Shown piece by piece: positions 13,580 to 23,548 of a stretch of 33,852 bases of DNA (position 1 is its first letter; every line of letters starts with the position of its first letter). Position numbers and translations under genes: made by a program. The notes beneath the pieces are model-generated. The model made no database searches and was not told where the DNA came from. It saw only the letters and a list, made by a program, of their open reading frames with translations. The stretch lies in assembly GCA_040386775.1 (NCBI GenBank), contig JAZKEU010000003.1, positions 30,446 to 64,297 on the forward strand, read 5' to 3'. The DNA comes from Bdellovibrionota bacterium (GTDB taxonomy: Bacteria > Bdellovibrionota > Bdellovibrionia > Bdellovibrionales > JAEYZS01).

Positions 13580-14361
13580 TTGTTCTCCGGTTTTTTACAA
13601 AAAAGAATATTTACAGAATTTTTTAAACGCTGATCTTCTGGAAAGTTATCCATTGGCATATCTTGTTCTTTACCAAAAATTGTAGGGTGATAAGTGGATT
13701 GAAAAGAGAAGTTGTACCCAATATCTTTGAAGAAAGACTTGAAGTTATTAAGATTAAAAAACCAAACAGGAATTTTTGATTCGTAATAGTTCTGAGTAGT
13801 TACGAAATCCTCAAAGCTTCCGCCTAAAAAATCTGTAAACAAGAAAAATTTTGGAGAAAATCCATTGAGCTTTGAAATGAGCTCTTTCCATTTTTCTACG
13901 TAATGAATACTCGATCCAAAGTGTATGACGTCGTAATTTGTATTTACATTAATTTCTGAAATTGATTTTACAAATTTTAAATTCTTATTATTTTTGAACA
14001 CATCAGCGCCAGCCTTACAAACTTCTTCTGTATCTAAAATAGTATAATCAATGTTTGCCGAATCAGTTAGGCATTGTGAGAGAACAGCATATGTAAACCC
14101 TATGCCTCCTCCAAAATCTAAGATTCTGATGGGCCTAGATAGCTGAGCCTGTAGCGTTGCTACTAAAACAGGGAGATGGTTGTCGCGATGTCTTTTAAGA
14201 ATAATGTCTTTTTCTAAAGATGAATTATCTAATAAAAATTTTTTTAATTGATCAACGTATCTTTGAGAAGCAGAAGTTGCTTCATAACCTTTTCCGGCTC
14301 CAGGACACTCTGAGAAACTTTTATAAGTGCCCTCCCAAATATACTTGTTATTTAAGTCCAC
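13576..14361 (-). CDS. TIGR04325-type putative methyltransferase
   Basis: A 261-residue protein of the 'LIC12133' methyltransferase family often seen in LPS loci. The N-terminus has IWEGTYKSFSEC and GKGYEA, the family W-x-G-x-Y...GY region. The SAM-binding core is ILDFGGGIGFTYAVLS, and the second acidic residue is in YTILDTEEVCKAG. Later, VIHFGSSIHYV and PKFFLFTDFLGG match the family. The frame extends to a GTG at 14397, but the GTG at 14361 shares one base with the upstream stop (TAGTG) and has AAAGG seven bases before it, so I take that as the start. The modified group is unknown. Confidence 0.8.
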   Translation of the reverse strand: MDLNNKYIWEGTYKSFSECPGAGKGYEATSASQRYVDQLKKFLLDNSSLEKDIILKRHRDNHLPVLVATLQAQLSRPIRILDFGGGIGFTYAVLSQCLTDSANIDYTILDTEEVCKAGADVFKNNKNLKFVKSISEINVNTNYDVIHFGSSIHYVEKWKELISKLNGFSPKFFLFTDFLGGSFEDFVTTQNYYESKIPVWFFNLNNFKSFFKDIGYNFSFQSTYHPTIFGKEQDMPMDNFPEDQRLKNSVNILFCKKPENK

Positions 14362-15764
14362 TATATAACCTTTACCTCTGGAACATAAACAATCCACTTG
14401 CCGCCTTTGCTAACAAAGTCTTGTTCTTTTTCCATTATTTCTTTGGCATGATTCCAACCGAACAGCAAAGCGTAATCTGGATATTGAGATTTAAATTGAT
14501 CAGGAGATTTCACAGGGATATGGACTCCCGGACTAAACTTGTTCTGCTTTAGTGGTGTTGTGTCGCTAATAAACTCAACTAAGTCCGGAGTGATATTGCA
14601 ATAGTTAGTTACAGTAGTGCTTTTTGAAGTAGCTGCGTAACCTACAACACGTTTTCCATCCAGTTTAAGTTTTTTAAGAAGAGAGAAAAGTTTCTCTTTT
14701 GAGTTTTCAACATTCTTAGAAAACTTAATATATGTCTCTAGATTTTCAAGACCAATATTTTTTTCAAACTCAATTTGTTTTTTCACAGCTTGAGAAACTT
14801 TTTGGGCTCCCGCATGAGCGATAAAATATCTCATCGAGCCACCATGAGTCTCGATGTGCTCCACATCAACAAGTTCTAGCCCATTACGCTGAGCTAGGTT
14901 TGAAACTGAAAGTGCAGAAAAGAAGAATACGTGTTCATCATAAATTTGATCGTACGAAGTTTTTTGAATAATATCTCCTAAGTACGGATCTTCATAGACA
15001 AAGTAGCCTTTAGGCGATAATAATTTTTTAACACCTTGGTAGATGGAATTAATATTAGGAATGTGACAAATCACATTAGCAGAAAATATTAAATCAGCGG
15101 TACCGTTCTTAGATACAATTTGAGCTGCCAATTCTTTATCGAAAAACTCCGTTGTTGTATTGATGCCTTTTTCCATTGCGCATTTTGCAACATTGGCAGA
15201 AGGTTCTACTCCAAGATGGCGAATATTTTTATTTTTAAAATTTTGAAGAAAAATTCCGTCATTACTACCAATTTCTAAAACAAACGGATCTTCTTTTGGT
15301 AAAACTTTGTCTGATAATTTGTCTGCTACAGTTGCAAAGTGTTGTTCCATGTATTTTGAAGTTGAAGAGAAGAAAGCGTAATTTTCGTGAAACATCATTT
15401 TTGCATCAGGCTGACTGATCAATTGTGCCATTTTACATTCATTGCAAAAGCCAACACTCAATTCAAAAAAATATTCTTTTGAGAACTGATCTGGTGATAA
15501 AAATCCATTTGCGATGGGTTGATTGCCAAAAGATATAAATGATTCTAATTTTTTTTCGCATACTCTGCATGAAGTCGTATGTGGTTTGTTCTTTTTAAAA
15601 AAATCTATGATTTTATAACGATAAGATCTAAGAGCTATAAATGCTCCAGCGACTATAGCTACAACAGATTGGATAATTAGATTTCCGCTGCCAGGATCTA
15701 AGTAAGCCATTGCAGAATCGTGAACTAAAAAGAATAACGCACATAAGATAAAAAATGATTTCAT
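14361..15764 (-). CDS. Sugar C-methyltransferase with N-terminal signal/YLDPGSG membrane module
   Basis: A 467-residue fusion. Residues 1-20 form a signal-peptide-like segment ending AMA, directly followed by YLDPGSG (21-27) and a hydrophobic helix to about residue 47 with Arg/Lys-rich cytoplasmic edge (RSYRYK). Then comes a standard sugar C-methyltransferase: zinc-binding CRVC (66, 69) and CNEC (107, 110), SAM motif EIGSNDG (from 164), the catalytic YDEHVFFF, the HGGSMR motif, and the C-terminal domain with GYAATSKSTT and FGWNH. Known relatives (TylC3, NovU, TcaB9 type) methylate C3 of dTDP-4-keto sugars and are soluble. ATG 15764 is chosen for AAAGGGG just upstream; an ATG at 15785 lacks it. 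First gene of the six-gene operon. Confidence 0.88.
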   Translation of the reverse strand: MKSFFILCALFFLVHDSAMAYLDPGSGNLIIQSVVAIVAGAFIALRSYRYKIIDFFKKNKPHTTSCRVCEKKLESFISFGNQPIANGFLSPDQFSKEYFFELSVGFCNECKMAQLISQPDAKMMFHENYAFFSSTSKYMEQHFATVADKLSDKVLPKEDPFVLEIGSNDGIFLQNFKNKNIRHLGVEPSANVAKCAMEKGINTTTEFFDKELAAQIVSKNGTADLIFSANVICHIPNINSIYQGVKKLLSPKGYFVYEDPYLGDIIQKTSYDQIYDEHVFFFSALSVSNLAQRNGLELVDVEHIETHGGSMRYFIAHAGAQKVSQAVKKQIEFEKNIGLENLETYIKFSKNVENSKEKLFSLLKKLKLDGKRVVGYAATSKSTTVTNYCNITPDLVEFISDTTPLKQNKFSPGVHIPVKSPDQFKSQYPDYALLFGWNHAKEIMEKEQDFVSKGGKWIVYVPEVKVI

Positions 15765-15801
15765 GATGCCCCTTTGCCAATGCAAATTATCAACTTACTA
15801 C

Positions 15802-15958: not shown

Positions 15959-16630
15959 ATGAAAACTAAGACCGCACCAAGTGGAAACGGGGGATCTGTT
16001 AATAAAGGCCTATGGAATGAGTTTTATGAGAAAAACAACGCCCCACTTGTGCCCTCATCATTTGCTCAAGAATGTCTTAAAATCATTGATAAAACGGGAA
16101 TATTATTTGAATTAGGCTGTGGAAATGGCAGAGATTCGATCTTTTTTATCAGTAATGATATTCAAGTTATAGGCTGTGACAGCTCAGAATCTGCTATTAA
16201 ACTCATAAATGACAATTATAAGAAACATATCGGAAATGAAAGTATGTTCATATGCGATGATTTTACTGCGCTAGACAACACAAAATACAAAGCAACTCTA
16301 TCAACTGTATATTCACGCTTCACAATGCACTCTGTAACAGATAAAGCAGCAAGCAGCGCACTTAGCTGGGCCTTTTCAGCCTTGAAAAATGAGGGACTCC
16401 TGCTTATCGAGGCTCGCTCTGTAAAAGATAAGATGTATGGTGTAGGACAAGAAGTGGGTAGAGATGCCTTTATAAATCACCACTACAGAAGATTTTTGCG
16501 TAAAGAAGAGCTTTTGTCTGAATTAGAATCTCTGGGCTTCGTTATTGAAAATGTAGTTGAGAGTGATAATTTGGCGGTATATCAAAATGACAACCCGGTG
16601 GTTGTTCGTGTTGTAGCTAGAAAAAAATAA
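15959..16630 (+). CDS. SAM-dependent methyltransferase (class I)
   Basis: A 223-residue class I methyltransferase. Motif I is LFELGCGNGRDSIFF, with Asp of GCDSSESAIKL as the ribose contact; CDDFTAL marks the adenine site, and STVYSRFTMHSV and LKNEGLLLIEAR complete the fold. The 'GCGNGRDS.FF' form resembles TehB/thiopurine-type methyltransferases. A strong AAGGGAG lies eight bases before the ATG, and a good promoter precedes it. It stands alone on the plus strand between two minus-strand operons, and its stop directly abuts the stop of the next gene (no intergenic base). Substrate unknown; a sugar or aminoacyl decoration is possible. Confidence 0.82.
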   Translation: MKTKTAPSGNGGSVNKGLWNEFYEKNNAPLVPSSFAQECLKIIDKTGILFELGCGNGRDSIFFISNDIQVIGCDSSESAIKLINDNYKKHIGNESMFICDDFTALDNTKYKATLSTVYSRFTMHSVTDKAASSALSWAFSALKNEGLLLIEARSVKDKMYGVGQEVGRDAFINHHYRRFLRKEELLSELESLGFVIENVVESDNLAVYQNDNPVVVRVVARKK

Positions 16631-17782
16631 TTATAAACTTTTTATTTTGATAATTTCCTCTGCACCTATTTCAGAGCTGTTTCCTATATTGAATACATTA
16701 GACTCTAATACGTCTTTAATATTTTTTTGATAAGTTAAATAATTAGATCTCAAATTCTCAAGAAGTCCATTTAACTTCTCAAACTCTCCTATTTGTAAGA
16801 CCTTGCCAATTTTCTCTCTGACGCTAACTTCAAAAGGCTGAATCGATAATTCATTGTAATCAGGATTATTAACCTTAGGAGGCGTGTTTACAAAAATAAC
16901 GGGCCTATTTAGAGTAAAGGCATAATCATAAGCGGCTCCAGACCAGTCTCCAATCATAACGTCAGAATCGTATAAATCATTTTTGCTATTCATATCTGTG
17001 ATGATCGATAAACTTTTAAATTCTGAAAATACTTTTGCAAGCCTTTTTTCAAGATCAGGGAATCTTCGTGTTGTCATCGGATGAAGTCTAACGCTGAGAT
17101 CATGTCCTAGATTTAAAACTTCTTTTACAAGCGAAAAATCTGGATCATTTTCGATGATAGAGCCGCGTCCCCAAGTAGATGCAAAAACAATCTTCAGTTT
17201 TTGAGCACCACTAAATGTAGAAAGGTTCTCTGGTTTATTCTTTAAAAGAGAGTCTAACCTGCCATACCCATGATGAAATATATTTTTTCGTTTAAGTTTA
17301 TACACGTCTTCATTTTTTCTGATTTCTGTAATGTGATACTTGCTCGAGACGAATACTGTATCGTAATTATCAAATGCTTTCTTTTTATAAACCATGTGAG
17401 TAGAAACAAGACTATGAAAAATATAGATGTAATGAACTGGAAAATGAGATCTCTTCCACGCGAAACAATGCAAGTCTGGAAGAGTAGTTACACAGACCTT
17501 TGCATTAAGGTTTAAAAAAAGCAAAGTTCTGGCCGATCCTTCGCCAATGTAAAAGGATTTAAAATTTTTATTCTCTAAATCTAATCGTGGATCTTTTTTA
17601 TCGGATGTTAAGTAGCTTACGTTTTGTCCTTTTTTTAAAAGAGATTCAATTAAGGGGCCAATGTGCGGCCAATCATTGACATTTTCAGCATAGAAAACTA
17701 TTTCTCTGAAAGAGGAGGGCAGTGATTCAAACGCAGTTTTGTTTTTGGAACATGTTAGAAAATTTTTTATTAAAGAAATCAT
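16631..17782 (-). CDS. CDP-glycerol glycerophosphotransferase (TagB/TagF)-like protein
   Basis: About 383 residues, GT-B-like fold. The C-terminal half carries family-type motifs: FHHGYGRLDSLL, IVFASTWGRGS, VRLHPMTTRRFPD and DSDVMIGDWSGAAYDYAF, the last matching the 'D..I.D.S....D' donor-site segment of poly(glycerol phosphate) transferases; RPVIFVNTP follows. ATG 17782 overlaps the upstream stop (ATGA) and has AAGGTG before it; a GTG at 17791 is the only longer choice. By family it would transfer a polyol phosphate or, as in some Gram-negative relatives, a sugar to a lipid-linked glycan. No CDP-glycerol synthase gene is visible nearby. It is the last gene of the operon starting at 21002. Confidence 0.75.
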   Translation of the reverse strand: MISLIKNFLTCSKNKTAFESLPSSFREIVFYAENVNDWPHIGPLIESLLKKGQNVSYLTSDKKDPRLDLENKNFKSFYIGEGSARTLLFLNLNAKVCVTTLPDLHCFAWKRSHFPVHYIYIFHSLVSTHMVYKKKAFDNYDTVFVSSKYHITEIRKNEDVYKLKRKNIFHHGYGRLDSLLKNKPENLSTFSGAQKLKIVFASTWGRGSIIENDPDFSLVKEVLNLGHDLSVRLHPMTTRRFPDLEKRLAKVFSEFKSLSIITDMNSKNDLYDSDVMIGDWSGAAYDYAFTLNRPVIFVNTPPKVNNPDYNELSIQPFEVSVREKIGKVLQIGEFEKLNGLLENLRSNYLTYQKNIKDVLESNVFNIGNSSEIGAEEIIKIKSL

Positions 17783-18516
17783 TTTATACACCTTAAATAA
17801 CCATGAGGATTACACGAAAGTAAGAGTTTTTGATCAAAATAATTATCGATTAAGAATCTATCGTTTTTGTTCAAAAATTCTCTAAGGGCAGAAAGAGGAT
17901 TATTATTTTTCCCCCATGGTCTTGATCTATTTACATTTTTTTCTTCTTTGTATTCAATAACAGTGCTGCAACAGATGATATAAGAATCTTTTGTGACCAA
18001 GTCAGAATAAAGATCAAGCTCCTTTAGAACACTGTTTTTGGTATGATTGGCATCTAAAATTAAAATAGTTCTGCTGTCTATAGGAATTTTATTATGAATA
18101 AAAATTCGAGTGTCTTGCTCGCAGGAATCCATCTCATACAATTCAATTCTTTTTGAAAGAGAGCCCTTTGATGACAGACGTTCCTTTAAGTCTTCCGGAA
18201 TGTATTTATCTATCCCTATTACTTTTCCTTGCCCGAGAGCTTCGAGTACAGAAGCATAAAATAATAAACTCCCGCCCCAAGCAACGCCAGCTTCCACAAT
18301 GTAGTCGGGTTTAACTTTGAAAATGATTTCTTGAATTGCAAATAAATCTTGCGGCAACTGTAGGCATGGTTCACCTAGGAATTTTGTTTGATGAATCCAA
18401 TGATACTTGTCTGCATTGAAAATCAATGTTTTGGCATCATTCGCCAATGCTTTGTCTTCTGACATTTTTTGACGTTCTTGCTTTAAAAATTCTTCAAATT
18501 CACTTCGAGAATACAT
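17779..18516 (-). CDS. CmcI-family (cephalosporin hydroxylase / rhamnosyl O-methyltransferase) protein
   Basis: A 245-residue class I methyltransferase fold protein of PF04989. The family block is strong: TKFLGEPCLQLPQDLFAIQE (45-64), PDYIVEAGVAWGGSLLFYAS (SAM site), GKVIGIDKYIPE, ILILDANHTKNSVLKELDLY, and RPWGKNNNPLSALREFL near the end. Members O-methylate rhamnose in glycolipids or modify antibiotics. Here methylation of a deoxysugar hydroxyl is most likely. The ATG has AGGA four bases upstream. It lies 12 bases after the formyltransferase gene and overlaps the next gene by ATGA, so it is co-transcribed with both. Confidence 0.85.
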   Translation of the reverse strand: MYSRSEFEEFLKQERQKMSEDKALANDAKTLIFNADKYHWIHQTKFLGEPCLQLPQDLFAIQEIIFKVKPDYIVEAGVAWGGSLLFYASVLEALGQGKVIGIDKYIPEDLKERLSSKGSLSKRIELYEMDSCEQDTRIFIHNKIPIDSRTILILDANHTKNSVLKELDLYSDLVTKDSYIICCSTVIEYKEEKNVNRSRPWGKNNNPLSALREFLNKNDRFLIDNYFDQKLLLSCNPHGYLRCIK

Positions 18517-18528
18517 TTGTTTCCTAAA

Positions 18529-19269
18529 TTATATTTCTTCAATATCCAGGGTTATGCGATATGTTTTTCCATTCAATCTCAACTGCGCAGTGTAATCTGG
18601 CGAGAAATCATGGGCCAAAATAGTTTTAATCAACTCAGTTGCAGGCAAACTCTTATCTAAATCAATAATTCTATCTTGAAGTAAGTCCGAACGCTTTTTA
18701 GTAAGTAAGTTCTGTTGAGCTTGAGGTTTCAATGTAATCTTTCCGCTTCTTATACCATCCCAATTTTCCTTAAACAATGCTTCGCAAGTTTCTACAACTT
18801 CATTATAAACTTTTTTACCCTTGTCTTGAAAATCATACGATACATTTTGCTGAACATATATATCACCCTCGTCTATTCCGCCGGATATAGAGTGCAGGGT
18901 TACGCCAGCAGGATGGCCATATTTTAAGGCCCAAACAACGGGATCACGGCCTCGGCCATAGGGTAGGAAGCTAGGGTGAACATTTAAGGTATTTTTTGCT
19001 AGTTCCAAGTCTTCTTTCTTAAATATCATACCTCCCCAGAGATTAAGGATCCAGTCATATTCTTTTCCGGATTTAATCAAAGTTTCTCTGTAAGACTTTG
19101 GAGAATAAAATTTTATATCTCTGCTGCGTAAATAATTTTGAATTTTTTCGGCATCGGGATCCATGACCACAAAATCATAATAGTCATCGGAGTAAGATTT
19201 TAAGAGAAACTGGATAAGATTCAATCCGATTTCTTTAGATGCAAATATTAATATGTTACAACTTTTCAT
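18529..19269 (-). CDS. Sugar N-formyltransferase-like protein
   Basis: A 246-residue formyltransferase-fold enzyme using N10-formyltetrahydrofolate. The catalytic triad of the family is visible: Asn96 and His98 in NVHPSFLPYGRGRDPVVWAL, and Asp133 in GGIDEGDIYVQ, with VTLHSI in between. The size and the 'YGRGRDPVVWAL' segment fit the sugar N-formyltransferases (VioF, WbkC, FdtF type) that formylate 3- or 4-amino sugars, and not methionyl-tRNA formyltransferase, which is longer. Candidate substrates are the amino sugars made by the two aminotransferases in this island. Start and upstream stop overlap by ATGA, giving coupling to the sulfatase gene. Confidence 0.85.
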   Translation of the reverse strand: MKSCNILIFASKEIGLNLIQFLLKSYSDDYYDFVVMDPDAEKIQNYLRSRDIKFYSPKSYRETLIKSGKEYDWILNLWGGMIFKKEDLELAKNTLNVHPSFLPYGRGRDPVVWALKYGHPAGVTLHSISGGIDEGDIYVQQNVSYDFQDKGKKVYNEVVETCEALFKENWDGIRSGKITLKPQAQQNLLTKKRSDLLQDRIIDLDKSLPATELIKTILAHDFSPDYTAQLRLNGKTYRITLDIEEI

Positions 19270-21002
19270 TTGCTCCTTCCTAAAGTTCGACCTTTTTTCC
19301 AGGATGATCTATCTAGTACAGGACCTTCAATAACATATTCATCAAGCTGGGTGAAAAATGGTTCTCTATAGGTATTAGAGTCCCAATTAAAATATTTAAA
19401 CAATCTTTTTCTATTTTTATCTTCGGTTAATTTATTAATGGGAGTGCCAGGGAAATTATTTTTTCCAGCTATGCCAATGAGGTCTTGAATAGTAGAAGGG
19501 ATGTCGGTGAGCTCCGCGGGAGCTTTTGAAAACTTCAAATCTCCTTTGCTATTAGGAGGTTTAACGAAAAGGATGGCATTGGCGCTGCCTGCAAGTACGT
19601 CTCCGATGATATCTTCATTCACGGGTTCCATTATTGTTCTGTCTTTGAATCGTTCAATATTTTTTGAGTCCCACCCGGTCAAATTTACCTTTATTCCAGC
19701 ACCATGATCAGAGTGAAGTATTATTGCGGAGCTATCGTAAATTCCATTTTCTTTTAGGGAATCAAACAGAGCAAATACACCTTCCAAGCTGCATCTAAAT
19801 AAATCTGTAGCATTTTCTCTTTTCGGGAGTAGTACTTTTGAGAGTTTGCAGTTTGAGTCGACTTCGATAGGAAAGTGAGAGGTCAAAACGTGTATAAATT
19901 TGTAAGTTGGCTGATCGTGATCTACGGTCATATTGTTAGTTATATCTGCCAGAAAGCTTCCATGAGCAAAAAATGTAGTGTAATCACTAGGATTTTTTAA
20001 AATATTCGAGAATCTCCAATTTTGATTATTGTAAATTAATTTTTTAATAAAATGTGGAGAGTGTCTAAAAAGAGAATAATTAAACAGTCTTAAGGATTCG
20101 AAGTTTCCGCCCAGTCCAGCCTTGTAAGGAACAGTTAATTTCTGATTGCTTGTGCTTTTTCCTGGTGGATAAAGGTAGTATCCATGAAAAACATCTGTTG
20201 AATATCCATGATCGGCTAGAAAGTTGATGATCGTGTTTCCGTTAAAAGTAGACTCTAAGTATGAGGCCATATTCTGGTGATTTTCATAAGCACTGCCTGA
20301 TAAAAAACTTGGCACGCTCATATGTGTTCCGCAGAATGAAGAAGTGGTATTTGTATAAAAAGTAAATCCGTCTAGTTTTTTTGAATAGTATTCTGGATCT
20401 TTAGCGATAACATCTTGGAGAATATCAGATTGAATTGTATCTAGAACAATTTGAATAACGTTATTTTTTTTAGAAAAACTATAAGTTGGACTTTCTTTTT
20501 TGTTTTTAAAAGGCGTTTTATAGTTTTGCCAAATCTGCGGTACCGAAATTAGAATCACGATAAATTGAATTGCCAAAAGAAGAGTGCAAGTTGTTCTGAG
20601 CGCACTAGAAATTTTATCTTTAAATTTGAAACAAGAAAAAATAAAAGCTAGCCAAATGAAGATTTCAAAAAAACCAAAGTGTGCATTGGCGCTCCAGTCG
20701 ATTGGCTTCCCATTGAAAGTCCCATAGCTCCAGACAAAAAGGTTTGCTTGAGTCCAAAGGAGGATAGCAATACTAGATAAAAACGTTTGATAAAAAGTAA
20801 ATATTTTTTTATTTAGCACTTGGCTTATAGTTATCAGAATTAAAAGAATCAATAATGCGGGCAAAAGATAAAATTGAAATAAAGAAATTAGTGAGTTTGT
20901 GAACTCGTTGGAGTTGCCATTATAAATTACTGAAGGTCCTGAGAAGAATATCGTAAAAACAATAAGAAGAGCCGCCGGCAAAACTAAAAATAATTTACTC
21001 AT
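19266..21002 (-). CDS. Membrane sulfatase/phosphotransferase of the alkaline phosphatase superfamily
   Basis: A 578-residue inner-membrane protein with about five N-terminal helices (roughly 3-21, 38-60, 69-92, 108-125, 137-158) and a periplasmic catalytic domain. The domain starts with NVIQIVLDTIQSDI (metal Asp), has the likely Thr nucleophile in SSFCGTHMSVPSFLSG, FIHVLTSHFP, and the metal site ILHSDHGAG. The absence of the sulfatase CxPxR motif argues against a true sulfatase. By analogy with LtaS, MdoB and EptA it would move a phosphoglycerol, phosphoethanolamine or similar group onto a glycan after export. It is the first gene of the minus-strand decoration operon; AGGAA lies ten bases before its ATG. 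Confidence 0.82.
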   Translation of the reverse strand: MSKLFLVLPAALLIVFTIFFSGPSVIYNGNSNEFTNSLISLFQFYLLPALLILLILITISQVLNKKIFTFYQTFLSSIAILLWTQANLFVWSYGTFNGKPIDWSANAHFGFFEIFIWLAFIFSCFKFKDKISSALRTTCTLLLAIQFIVILISVPQIWQNYKTPFKNKKESPTYSFSKKNNVIQIVLDTIQSDILQDVIAKDPEYYSKKLDGFTFYTNTTSSFCGTHMSVPSFLSGSAYENHQNMASYLESTFNGNTIINFLADHGYSTDVFHGYYLYPPGKSTSNQKLTVPYKAGLGGNFESLRLFNYSLFRHSPHFIKKLIYNNQNWRFSNILKNPSDYTTFFAHGSFLADITNNMTVDHDQPTYKFIHVLTSHFPIEVDSNCKLSKVLLPKRENATDLFRCSLEGVFALFDSLKENGIYDSSAIILHSDHGAGIKVNLTGWDSKNIERFKDRTIMEPVNEDIIGDVLAGSANAILFVKPPNSKGDLKFSKAPAELTDIPSTIQDLIGIAGKNNFPGTPINKLTEDKNRKRLFKYFNWDSNTYREPFFTQLDEYVIEGPVLDRSSWKKGRTLGRSK

Positions 21003-22109: not shown

Positions 22110-22469
22110 GTGGCCAAAATAGTTAATCTCAAATCCATAGAAGATAAGCGCGGAACCCTCGTTATTGCTCAAGACGAAATACCATTCTCAATTGCGAGAG
22201 TATTTTTTATTTACGGCACATCTGAAATGCGTGGTGGCCATCGTCACATAAGAAATCGAATGGGCCTTATCGCGCAGCAAGGAAGTGTGGAGGTTTTTTG
22301 TCAGAACAGTACGACTGAATCTTTGCATACACTGAGTAATCCGAGTCAGTGTCTTCTCGTAGATCCGGAAGATTGGCACACCATGAAATTTTCTAAGAAT
22401 GCAGTCCTTTTGGTTTTAAGCTCTGAGAAGTACGATGAAGAAGATTACATAACGGATAGATACAGATGA
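22110..22469 (+). CDS. fdtA: dTDP-6-deoxy-hex-4-ulose 3,4-ketoisomerase (FdtA/WxcM-like)
   Basis: A 119-residue cupin of the FdtA family (PF05523). It moves the keto group of dTDP-4-keto-6-deoxyglucose from C4 to C3. The pattern is complete: [30 protein letters not shown] (the His-x-His pair conserved in FdtA), and the ending [20 protein letters not shown] with DYITDRYR. It starts at a GTG (22110); the ATG at 22102 is in another frame, and the ATG at 22091 meets a stop after three codons. The stop overlaps fdtB by ATGA. The 3,4-ketoisomerase set also includes QdtA and Tyl1a; stereochemistry cannot be decided from sequence. Confidence 0.85.
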
Positions 22470-23548
22470 TTGATTATGAAAATCTAGCACGCTTGAACGC
22501 GCCTTTTGTTTCTGAATTAGAAAAAGCTTTTTCGGATGTGTTAAAGAGTGGTCAATTCATACTAGGGCAGCAGGTAACCGAGTTTGAGAAAGAATTCTCA
22601 CAATATTTCGGTAGCAAATATGCAATCGGATTGAATTCAGGTTTAGATGCTTTAATTATCCCTCTGGTGGCTTTAGATCTACCAAAAGATTCAGAGGTTC
22701 TTGTTCCCAGTAATACTTACATTGCAACGATATTGGCAATTATGCAGGCAGGTTTAAAACCGATTCTTGTGGAGCCAGACATCGAATCTTATAATATCTC
22801 TCCGAAAAATTTAGCTAAGGCCATTACGCCACGCTCTAAAGCAGTAATGATTGTTCATCTCTATGGGAACCCATGTGAGATGGAAGAAATTGTAAAAATT
22901 TGTAAAGAAAATGATCTGACTCTTATTGAAGACTGCGCCCAATCTCATGGAGCAAGATTTAAAAATAAAAAAGTTGGTACTTACGGCATAGGTTGTTTCA
23001 GTTTTTATCCTACTAAAAATTTGGGAGCACTTGGAGACGCGGGTGCTGTCCTTACTGATGATCAAGTTCTTTATGAGAAGATTAAAAGCTTAAGGAATTA
23101 TGGATCAAAAGTTAAATACCATAATGACTATATTGGTTACAACTCTAGGCTCGATGAAGTTCAAGCTGCATTTCTCAGGGTAAAATTAAGAAACCTTGAT
23201 AAAATCAATGCACACAAGAAGAAGCTTGCTGCAATTTATCACTCTGAGTTGGATAACAAATTCATAAAGCCAAAAGTGGAATCTCACCTAGAGCACGTGT
23301 ACCACATATACTGTATTCGCCATCCAGAAAGAGATAAGTTGAAGAGCTACCTTTTGGATAATGGGGTTAAAACAGAAATTCATTATCCGATTCCTCCTCA
23401 TAAACAGGTTGGATATAAATTTTTATTTGAAAATCAGTCGTACCCACTAAGCGAAGAAATTCACAAAACTGTTTTGAGTCTTCCTATTTCTTACTTCCAT
23501 ATGGAAGAAGATATTCTCAAAGTATGTAATGCTTTGAACAAATTTTAA
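22466..23548 (+). CDS. fdtB: dTDP-3-amino-3,6-dideoxyhexose transaminase (FdtB-like)
   Basis: A 360-residue DegT/DnrJ/EryC1 aminotransferase. The PLP lysine is Lys184 in [18 protein letters not shown]; other family segments are [35 protein letters not shown] and [11 protein letters not shown]. This combination is typical of the 3-amino-3,6-dideoxy sugar group (FdtB, QdtB), and coupling to fdtA supports it. Together the pair would give a dTDP-3-amino-3,6-dideoxyhexose such as Fuc3N or Qui3N. The acetyltransferase FdtC is missing; the N-formyltransferase at 18529-19269 could take that role. It ends two bases from the convergent ABC gene. Confidence 0.85.

Follow-up and report, generated by a model that had tools for sequence, protein, structure and literature searches.

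Phosphoramidate and phosphonate groups on microbial surfaces are important both in recognition by phages and the immune system and in the marine cycling of phosphorus and methane. Whereas the enzymes that activate these headgroups are known, the transferases for the last step have been identified in only a few organisms. In Campylobacter, the sections consulted of two reports describe how Cj1415–Cj1418 convert glutamine, ATP, and CTP into CDP-phosphoramidate 3'-phosphate, with Cj1421 and Cj1422 as the transferases (PMC11800397, PMC3907429). Similarly, the activation of phosphonates by PntC has been described, and the consulted part of that source names LicD-like or glycosyl transferases (PMC6697681); the word glycerophosphotransferase is absent from its main text. 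Could proteins with the fold of TagF and TarL, which are CDP-polyol phosphotransferases, also carry out such final steps? The literature searched, in its consulted parts, contains no statement of a TagF-fold protein transferring phosphonate or phosphoramidate. Here, we analyzed four minus-strand genes, one of which encodes such a protein, at positions 16631–21002 of a 33,852-nucleotide stretch of a Bdellovibrionota genome (assembly GCA_040386775.1, contig JAZKEU010000003.1, positions 30,446 to 64,297; hereafter, the window). A first-pass annotation of the letters had placed an LtaS-like phosphotransferase, a sugar N-formyltransferase, a CmcI-type O-methyltransferase, and a TagB/TagF-like protein there; the four open reading frames are present and tightly packed, and all four Pfam families were matched. 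Each of these enzyme families is already known, and it is the combination and the clade context that appear to be new.

It is possible, and we tentatively propose, that the TagF-like protein transfers a cytidine-activated phosphorus headgroup within a late-tailoring cassette; we infer this because several members of its clade adjoin machinery for CMP-phosphonate or CDP-phosphoramidate. The protein (386 aa; 16631..17791, minus strand) matches Glyphos_transf PF04464 at 1.8e-13, with 50.6 bits against a gathering cut-off of 22.1. The top Foldseek match of its AlphaFold2 model (predicted local distance difference test, pLDDT, 86.8) is TagF H444N with CDP-glycerol (3l7k, 2.5e-13), and a sequence profile of nine members reaches TarL at 8.2e-6. 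Residues H126, R235, H237, D282, W283, and S284 are invariant in all nine TagF-like proteins, and the R-x-H and D-W/Y-S positions align with KxH and DYS of TarL. H237 aligns with the histidine of the TarL HP motif, and H126 would, from order and spacing, match TarL H300 and TagF H444. The consulted part of one report describes two essential histidines in TagF-like enzymes (PMC11924219). On the other hand, the window protein differs from TagF and TarL in its length, in its identity to TagF (16–17% in structural alignments), and in that no TagD was found in its genome. Could it instead be a GT-B glycosyltransferase of the ordinary kind, with a nucleotide sugar as donor, and the sulfatase-fold protein the sole phosphoryl enzyme of the operon? 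The VIA-align Z scores, in which GT-B UDP-GlcNAc epimerases (22.2) and TagF (21.3) tie, are consistent with this, as is the finding of no cytidine-linked donor pathway in the window genome. However, PF04464 is over its cut-off, Foldseek ranks TagF about four orders of magnitude ahead of the best match that lacks a TagF-type domain (3.0e-9), and the window protein retains every residue that is invariant among its relatives, so that we consider a glycosyltransferase improbable.

The headgroup proposal draws on the neighborhoods of the clade. A scan of genome contigs yielded nine TagF-like loci, which represent about four independent lineages: two from Bdellovibrionia (L018, identical to L035, in G018, JAUICP010000008.1; and L020, identical to L034, in G026, JAUHWN010000104.1) and seven new ones, from four ammonia-oxidising archaea, one Syntrophomonadaceae, and two Defluviitaleaceae. 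Donor genes lie within ~8 kb of the TagF-like gene in five of the nine, on the same contig in one, and elsewhere in the genome in two; none were found for the remaining one. In the Syntrophomonadaceae locus (L029), genes for a YidC-like protein, the TagF-like protein, a PPDK/PEP-utiliser, a class I glutamine amidotransferase (GATase), and a cytidylyltransferase (NTP_transf_3) form an overlapping operon. The same glutamine-kinase-like/GATase/cytidylyltransferase trio lies beside the TagF-like gene in both Bdellovibrionia loci, in L020 as shown by homology. The best NCBIfam model for the GATases of the trio is gamma-glutamyl-CDP-amidate hydrolase (5.6e-31 and 6.9e-27, under its cut-off), and the cytidylyltransferases of profile A4 match CTP:phosphocholine cytidylyltransferase best in the PDB (3.1e-20), with PntC (6pd1) at 9.5e-14. 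The trio beside TagF in L018, L020, and L029 thus resembles the C. jejuni O-methyl phosphoramidate pathway, whereas the window genome yielded no match to the kinase of that pathway. The L029 operon itself (L029:2195-7764, JAISDD010000114.1, a Clostridia metagenome-assembled genome), a compact YidC-like/TagF-like/glutamine-kinase-like/CDP-amidate-hydrolase-like/cytidylyltransferase unit, is, judged by its gene content, a candidate phosphoramidate pathway outside Campylobacter.

The archaeal relatives point to phosphonates. In Nitrosopumilus (L027), a cytidylyltransferase gene adjoins the TagF-like gene, and genes for phosphoenolpyruvate (PEP) mutase, a split thiamine pyrophosphate-dependent decarboxylase, an iron-containing alcohol dehydrogenase, and a sulfatase-superfamily protein lie within 7 kb; Nitrosopelagicus (L030) carries homologues of these phosphonate-type genes within ~8 kb. 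These two relatives thus sit in clusters like those of phosphonyl tailoring (PepM-Ppd-PntC), from which the window differs in that PEP mutase was not found in its genome and in that LicD-like or glycosyl transferases are named in the consulted part of the description of that system (PMC6697681). In L028, PEP mutase and cytidylyltransferase genes are more than 15 kb away, apparently on the same contig; in L031, they are on another contig only; and in the Defluviitaleaceae genome G373, PEP mutase and a cytidylyltransferase-PsrA-type fusion are on a contig other than that of the TagF-like gene. Neither PEP mutase nor glutamine kinase was found in the genome of L033. Two features of these loci may be recorded in their own right. 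In Nitrosopelagicus G369, the cytidylyltransferase gene of the phosphonate cluster is directly followed by a second sulfatase-superfamily gene (L048:2265-3380; PF00884, 1.4e-21), and in both Defluviitaleaceae loci (L032:9221-11113 and L033:1520-3334) the TagF-like domain is fused behind a YidC/Oxa1-type (60KD_IMP) domain, the two being separate adjacent genes in L029.

Collectively, these neighborhoods hint at an unrecognised kind of transferase. In a broader and more doubtful version, the TagF-fold clade of archaea, Clostridia, and Bdellovibrionia would be a general transferase that moves cytidine-activated phosphonate or phosphoramidate headgroups onto glycans or lipids. It would be paired across the membrane with an alkaline-phosphatase-superfamily membrane enzyme in a cytoplasm-to-periplasm relay, with the YidC-like module as a platform in Clostridia. 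The window operon would be a member whose headgroup is not yet recognised or found, and the clade would fill the last step lacking an assigned enzyme in those pathways in these lineages. If the clade does supply the final transferase, the usual annotation of the family, "teichoic-acid glycerophosphotransferase", would have to be revised for certain Gram-negative and archaeal members, and final transfer could be tested directly with purified enzymes.

Several observations weigh against headgroup transfer by the TagF-like protein. Two of the five donor-bearing loci (L034 and L035) are the sequences behind the search profile, and the fetched stretches of four of the nine loci (L028, L031, L032, and L033) contain no donor genes. 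The window protein is only 27–39% identical to its relatives, and the TagF tree did not place its branch. Neither formyltransferase nor CmcI relatives were seen in the nine loci, so the four-gene set was seen nowhere else. Furthermore, the window genome itself (2.86 Mb, 26 contigs, 98.39% complete) yielded no candidate glutamine kinase with profile A3, which matches in 3 of 11 genomes, and no PEP mutase (PF13714 at 1e-5), for which 8 of the 11 genomes match, a count that includes G018 (apparently methylisocitrate lyase, judged by its neighbours), G026, and G273. No strong A4 cytidylyltransferase was found there (best 7.2e-7); its NTP_transf_3 proteins are GlmU, KdsB, RmlA, GalU, and one without an assignment, and no activated donor was identified. 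The unassigned NTP_transf_3 protein (L081; G000:C16:78321) is a candidate donor enzyme. We claim neither a phosphoramidate nor a phosphonate pathway for this organism, glutamine kinase and PEP mutase, respectively, not having been found, and because no donor pathway was found in its genome, our proposal specifies no particular headgroup.

The first-pass annotation had instead read the operon as teichoic in flavour, with phospho-polyol addition, while noting that no CDP-glycerol or CDP-ribitol synthase was visible. The latter point extends to the whole window genome: a TagD-type search (PF01467, E ≤ 1e-3) returned four matches, namely CoaD, RfaE2, NadD, and RibF, and a TarI/IspD-type search (PF01128) matched GlmU only. 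Separately, with no IspD match by PF01128, isoprenoids may come by another pathway in this organism. The phospho-polyol chemistry fared worse. Glycerol- or ribitol-phosphate decoration, in which the TagF-like protein would use a CDP-polyol and the LtaS-like protein phosphatidylglycerol, is suggested by the folds of both enzymes (for TagF, the 3l7k match; for LtaS, the best PDB match of profile A1, described below). LtaS-type enzymes, moreover, are not known to need a CDP-polyol. Gram-negative TagF-like capsule enzymes also exist, as exemplified by HS1.09 of C. jejuni, but the HS1.09 cluster does hold a CDP-glycerol synthase, according to the consulted part of that report (PMC11924219). No TagD/TarI-type enzyme was found in the window genome, and five of the nine relatives have donor genes for phosphonate or phosphoramidate nearby. 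We therefore regard teichoic-type decoration as quite unlikely; the fold and the PF04464 assignment of the TagF/TagB-like protein stand, and its teichoic function is not supported.

The TagF-like gene is patchily distributed, occurring in 3 of the 143 genomes of the class Bdellovibrionia, to which the window belongs, its own genome included. No relative was found in plasmid records. Among viral contigs, profile A2 gave no relative, and profile A7 gave one prophage-like fragment whose other open reading frames match no collected protein.

The second phosphorus-related gene of the operon encodes a 578-aa sulfatase/alkaline-phosphatase-superfamily membrane protein (19266..21002, minus strand), a candidate phosphotransferase with an N-terminal transmembrane bundle and a presumed extracytoplasmic catalytic domain. 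It matches Sulfatase PF00884 at 1.7e-12. Profile A1, built from five proteins of the Bdellovibrionota side with the window protein first (aligned relatives 22–26% identical), finds LtaS (4uoo) first in the PDB at 1.2e-12, before choline sulfatase and phosphonate monoester hydrolase. Residues D188, T226, H376, D432, and H433 are invariant in all five proteins of A1; in the A6 alignment of seven proteins, D188, H376, D432, and H433 remain invariant, with Thr or Ser at the nucleophile position. Hydropathy indicates four transmembrane segments, and a low-confidence structure model (pLDDT 50.6) shows five long N-terminal helices. In the same model, the VIA Z scores lie close together (sulfatase 7sno, 12.6; YejM 6vc7, 11.8; LtaS 2w5q, 11.7; BcsG 6pcz, 11.3; MCR-1 6li4, 11.1), and because the model is poor, these ranks are only supportive; they are compatible with a protein of LtaS, EptA, YejM, BcsG, or sulfatase type. 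The window protein thus shares with the LtaS/EptA/YejM/BcsG group the N-terminal transmembrane segments, the C-terminal alkaline-phosphatase-superfamily domain, the place of the Thr nucleophile, and the Asp-His pair. In contrast, it scores 20.7 bits on the NCBIfam LtaS equivalog, whose cut-off is 970, which excludes LtaS orthology. "LtaS-like" is consequently apt for the fold and not for the lineage. The Thr of SSFCGTHMS, which the first-pass annotation had singled out as the nucleophile while allowing that the site might prove inactive, lies in an apparently intact site, and from these residues the enzyme looks active.

Relatives of this protein are rare: matches at 1e-8 occur in 4 of the 368 genomes of the phylum, the window's own included, and a first scan of genome contigs found none. 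A related 878-aa sulfatase-fold protein is encoded on a plasmid of a cockroach-gut Deltaproteobacterium (CP026659.1 128135-130771; L036:11713-14349), with ManC, Gmd, and methyltransferase genes nearby. At the level of the superfamily, a sulfatase gene is present in the fetched stretch of six of the nine TagF-like loci (L027, L028, L030, L031, L032, and L035), four of the six being archaeal. Three of these calls were made without a Pfam match over the cut-off: the L028 protein has no Pfam match and is 68% identical to that of L030, the L031 protein is under the Pfam cut-off yet 78% identical to that of L030, and the L032 protein has no Pfam match and was recognized by a profile match of 98.1% probability. 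No sulfatase gene was seen in the fetched stretches of L029, L033, and L034, the first two being short contigs. Profile A1 and the archaeal sulfatase profile are related, with 98.1% probability over 273 columns. From the four PF00884 matches in the window genome, ~0.03 sulfatase genes would be expected per 20 kb; their density is probably higher in sugar islands, and the size of the excess near TagF is uncertain.

Are the four genes one functional unit? The formyltransferase gene overlaps the sulfatase-fold gene by 4 bases and is separated from the CmcI-type gene by 12 bases, and the CmcI-type and TagF-like genes overlap by 13 bases. Because of this spacing, a single transcript is likely; a promoter and terminator scan gave no excess over shuffled sequences (20 vs 20.4 and 3 vs 3.8). 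Alternatively, a variable sugar island may simply have brought these genes side by side, in which case they share no product and the operon is an accident of shuffling. The genes of the island lie on both strands with frequent changes of direction, and no relatives of the formyltransferase or the CmcI-type gene were seen around the TagF-like relatives, as such an accident would have it. However, the junctions are very tight, a sulfatase-superfamily gene is near the TagF-like gene in six of nine loci, even if sugar islands are probably enriched in such genes, and L032 again has relatives of the neighbouring DegT, FdtA, and methyltransferase genes less than 8 kb from TagF. An accidental grouping therefore has a low probability in our view.

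The two remaining proteins of the operon bear out their earlier naming. The 246-aa sugar N-formyltransferase (18529..19269, minus strand) matches Formyl_trans_N PF00551 at 9.6e-12 and has N96, H98, and D133, which we take to be the Asn-His-Asp triad of sugar N-formyltransferases. Its best PDB match is PseJ (6ci2, 6.8e-20), with VioF (4yfv) at 6e-12. It shares the domain and the N-H-D residues with PseJ, VioF, and WlaRD but is below every NCBIfam equivalog cut-off listed, including that of PRK07579, a dTDP-4-amino-4,6-dideoxyglucose formyltransferase (7.5e-19). The 245-aa S-adenosylmethionine (SAM)-dependent O-methyltransferase (17779..18516, minus strand) is, by its sequence, a clear member of the CmcI/rhamnosyl O-methyltransferase family: RMNT_CmcI PF04989 matches at 1.6e-52, with 178.7 bits against a cut-off of 23.2, and the rhamnosyl O-methyltransferase equivalog NF045824 matches at 5.8e-18, with 65.1 bits, below its cut-off of 400. 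Relatives of the CmcI-type protein occur in 56 plasmid records, all at <60% identity, and two relatives of the formyltransferase, both haloarchaeal, were found on plasmids. Formylation and O-methylation are ordinary sugar tailoring.

The sugar for formylation is probably supplied next door. An FdtA/WxcM-type 3,4-ketoisomerase (22110..22469, plus strand; PF05523, 1.7e-29) probably provides dTDP-3-amino-3,6-dideoxyhexose, and the adjacent DegT/DnrJ/EryC1 aminotransferase (22466..23548, plus strand; PF01041, 9e-106) is a probable amino-sugar supply enzyme. Because these two genes lie beside the operon, a dTDP-3-amino-dideoxyhexose would be the formyl acceptor. In L032, a 37% relative of FdtA lies ~5 kb from the TagF gene, and the aminotransferase is 44% identical to L032:2477-3574. 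A SAM methyltransferase (15959..16630, plus strand), convergent with the TagF-like gene with a 0-base gap, is a possible partner; it matches L032:11126-11752, directly downstream of the Defluviitaleaceae YidC-TagF fusion (36% over 209 aa, E 6.2e-32).

Taken together, the four genes plausibly act as a cassette for late tailoring of the oligosaccharide or O-antigen that the surrounding island builds. In the cytoplasm, N-formylation of the dTDP-amino-dideoxyhexose would fall to the formyltransferase and O-methylation of a sugar to the CmcI-type enzyme, and the TagF-fold enzyme would take a small phosphorus-containing headgroup from a cytidine nucleotide and attach it to a sugar hydroxyl. The LtaS/EptA-fold protein, with Thr226 as nucleophile, would act outside the membrane, where it would transfer a phosphoryl headgroup of the glycan or take it off.

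The island is of the O-glycan/O-antigen type. Around the operon, it contains glycosyltransferases, three DegT aminotransferases, FdtA, a Gmd-type dehydratase, methyltransferases, and an ABC transporter, and beyond the right end of the window, there are an initiating sugar transferase and a Wzy_C ligase-type protein. Immediately to the left of the window is a gene for a 702-aa sulfatase-superfamily protein, the start of which reaches into the window (G000:C3:28582-30690, equal to L023:8582-10690). Furthermore, a C-methyltransferase of the window (14361-15785, minus strand) and the glutamine-kinase-like protein of the Bdellovibrionia locus L018 (L018:11510-13837, minus strand) share a similar N-terminal hydrophobic leader with AY-[LI]-[DN]-PG, possibly a common membrane-anchor module.

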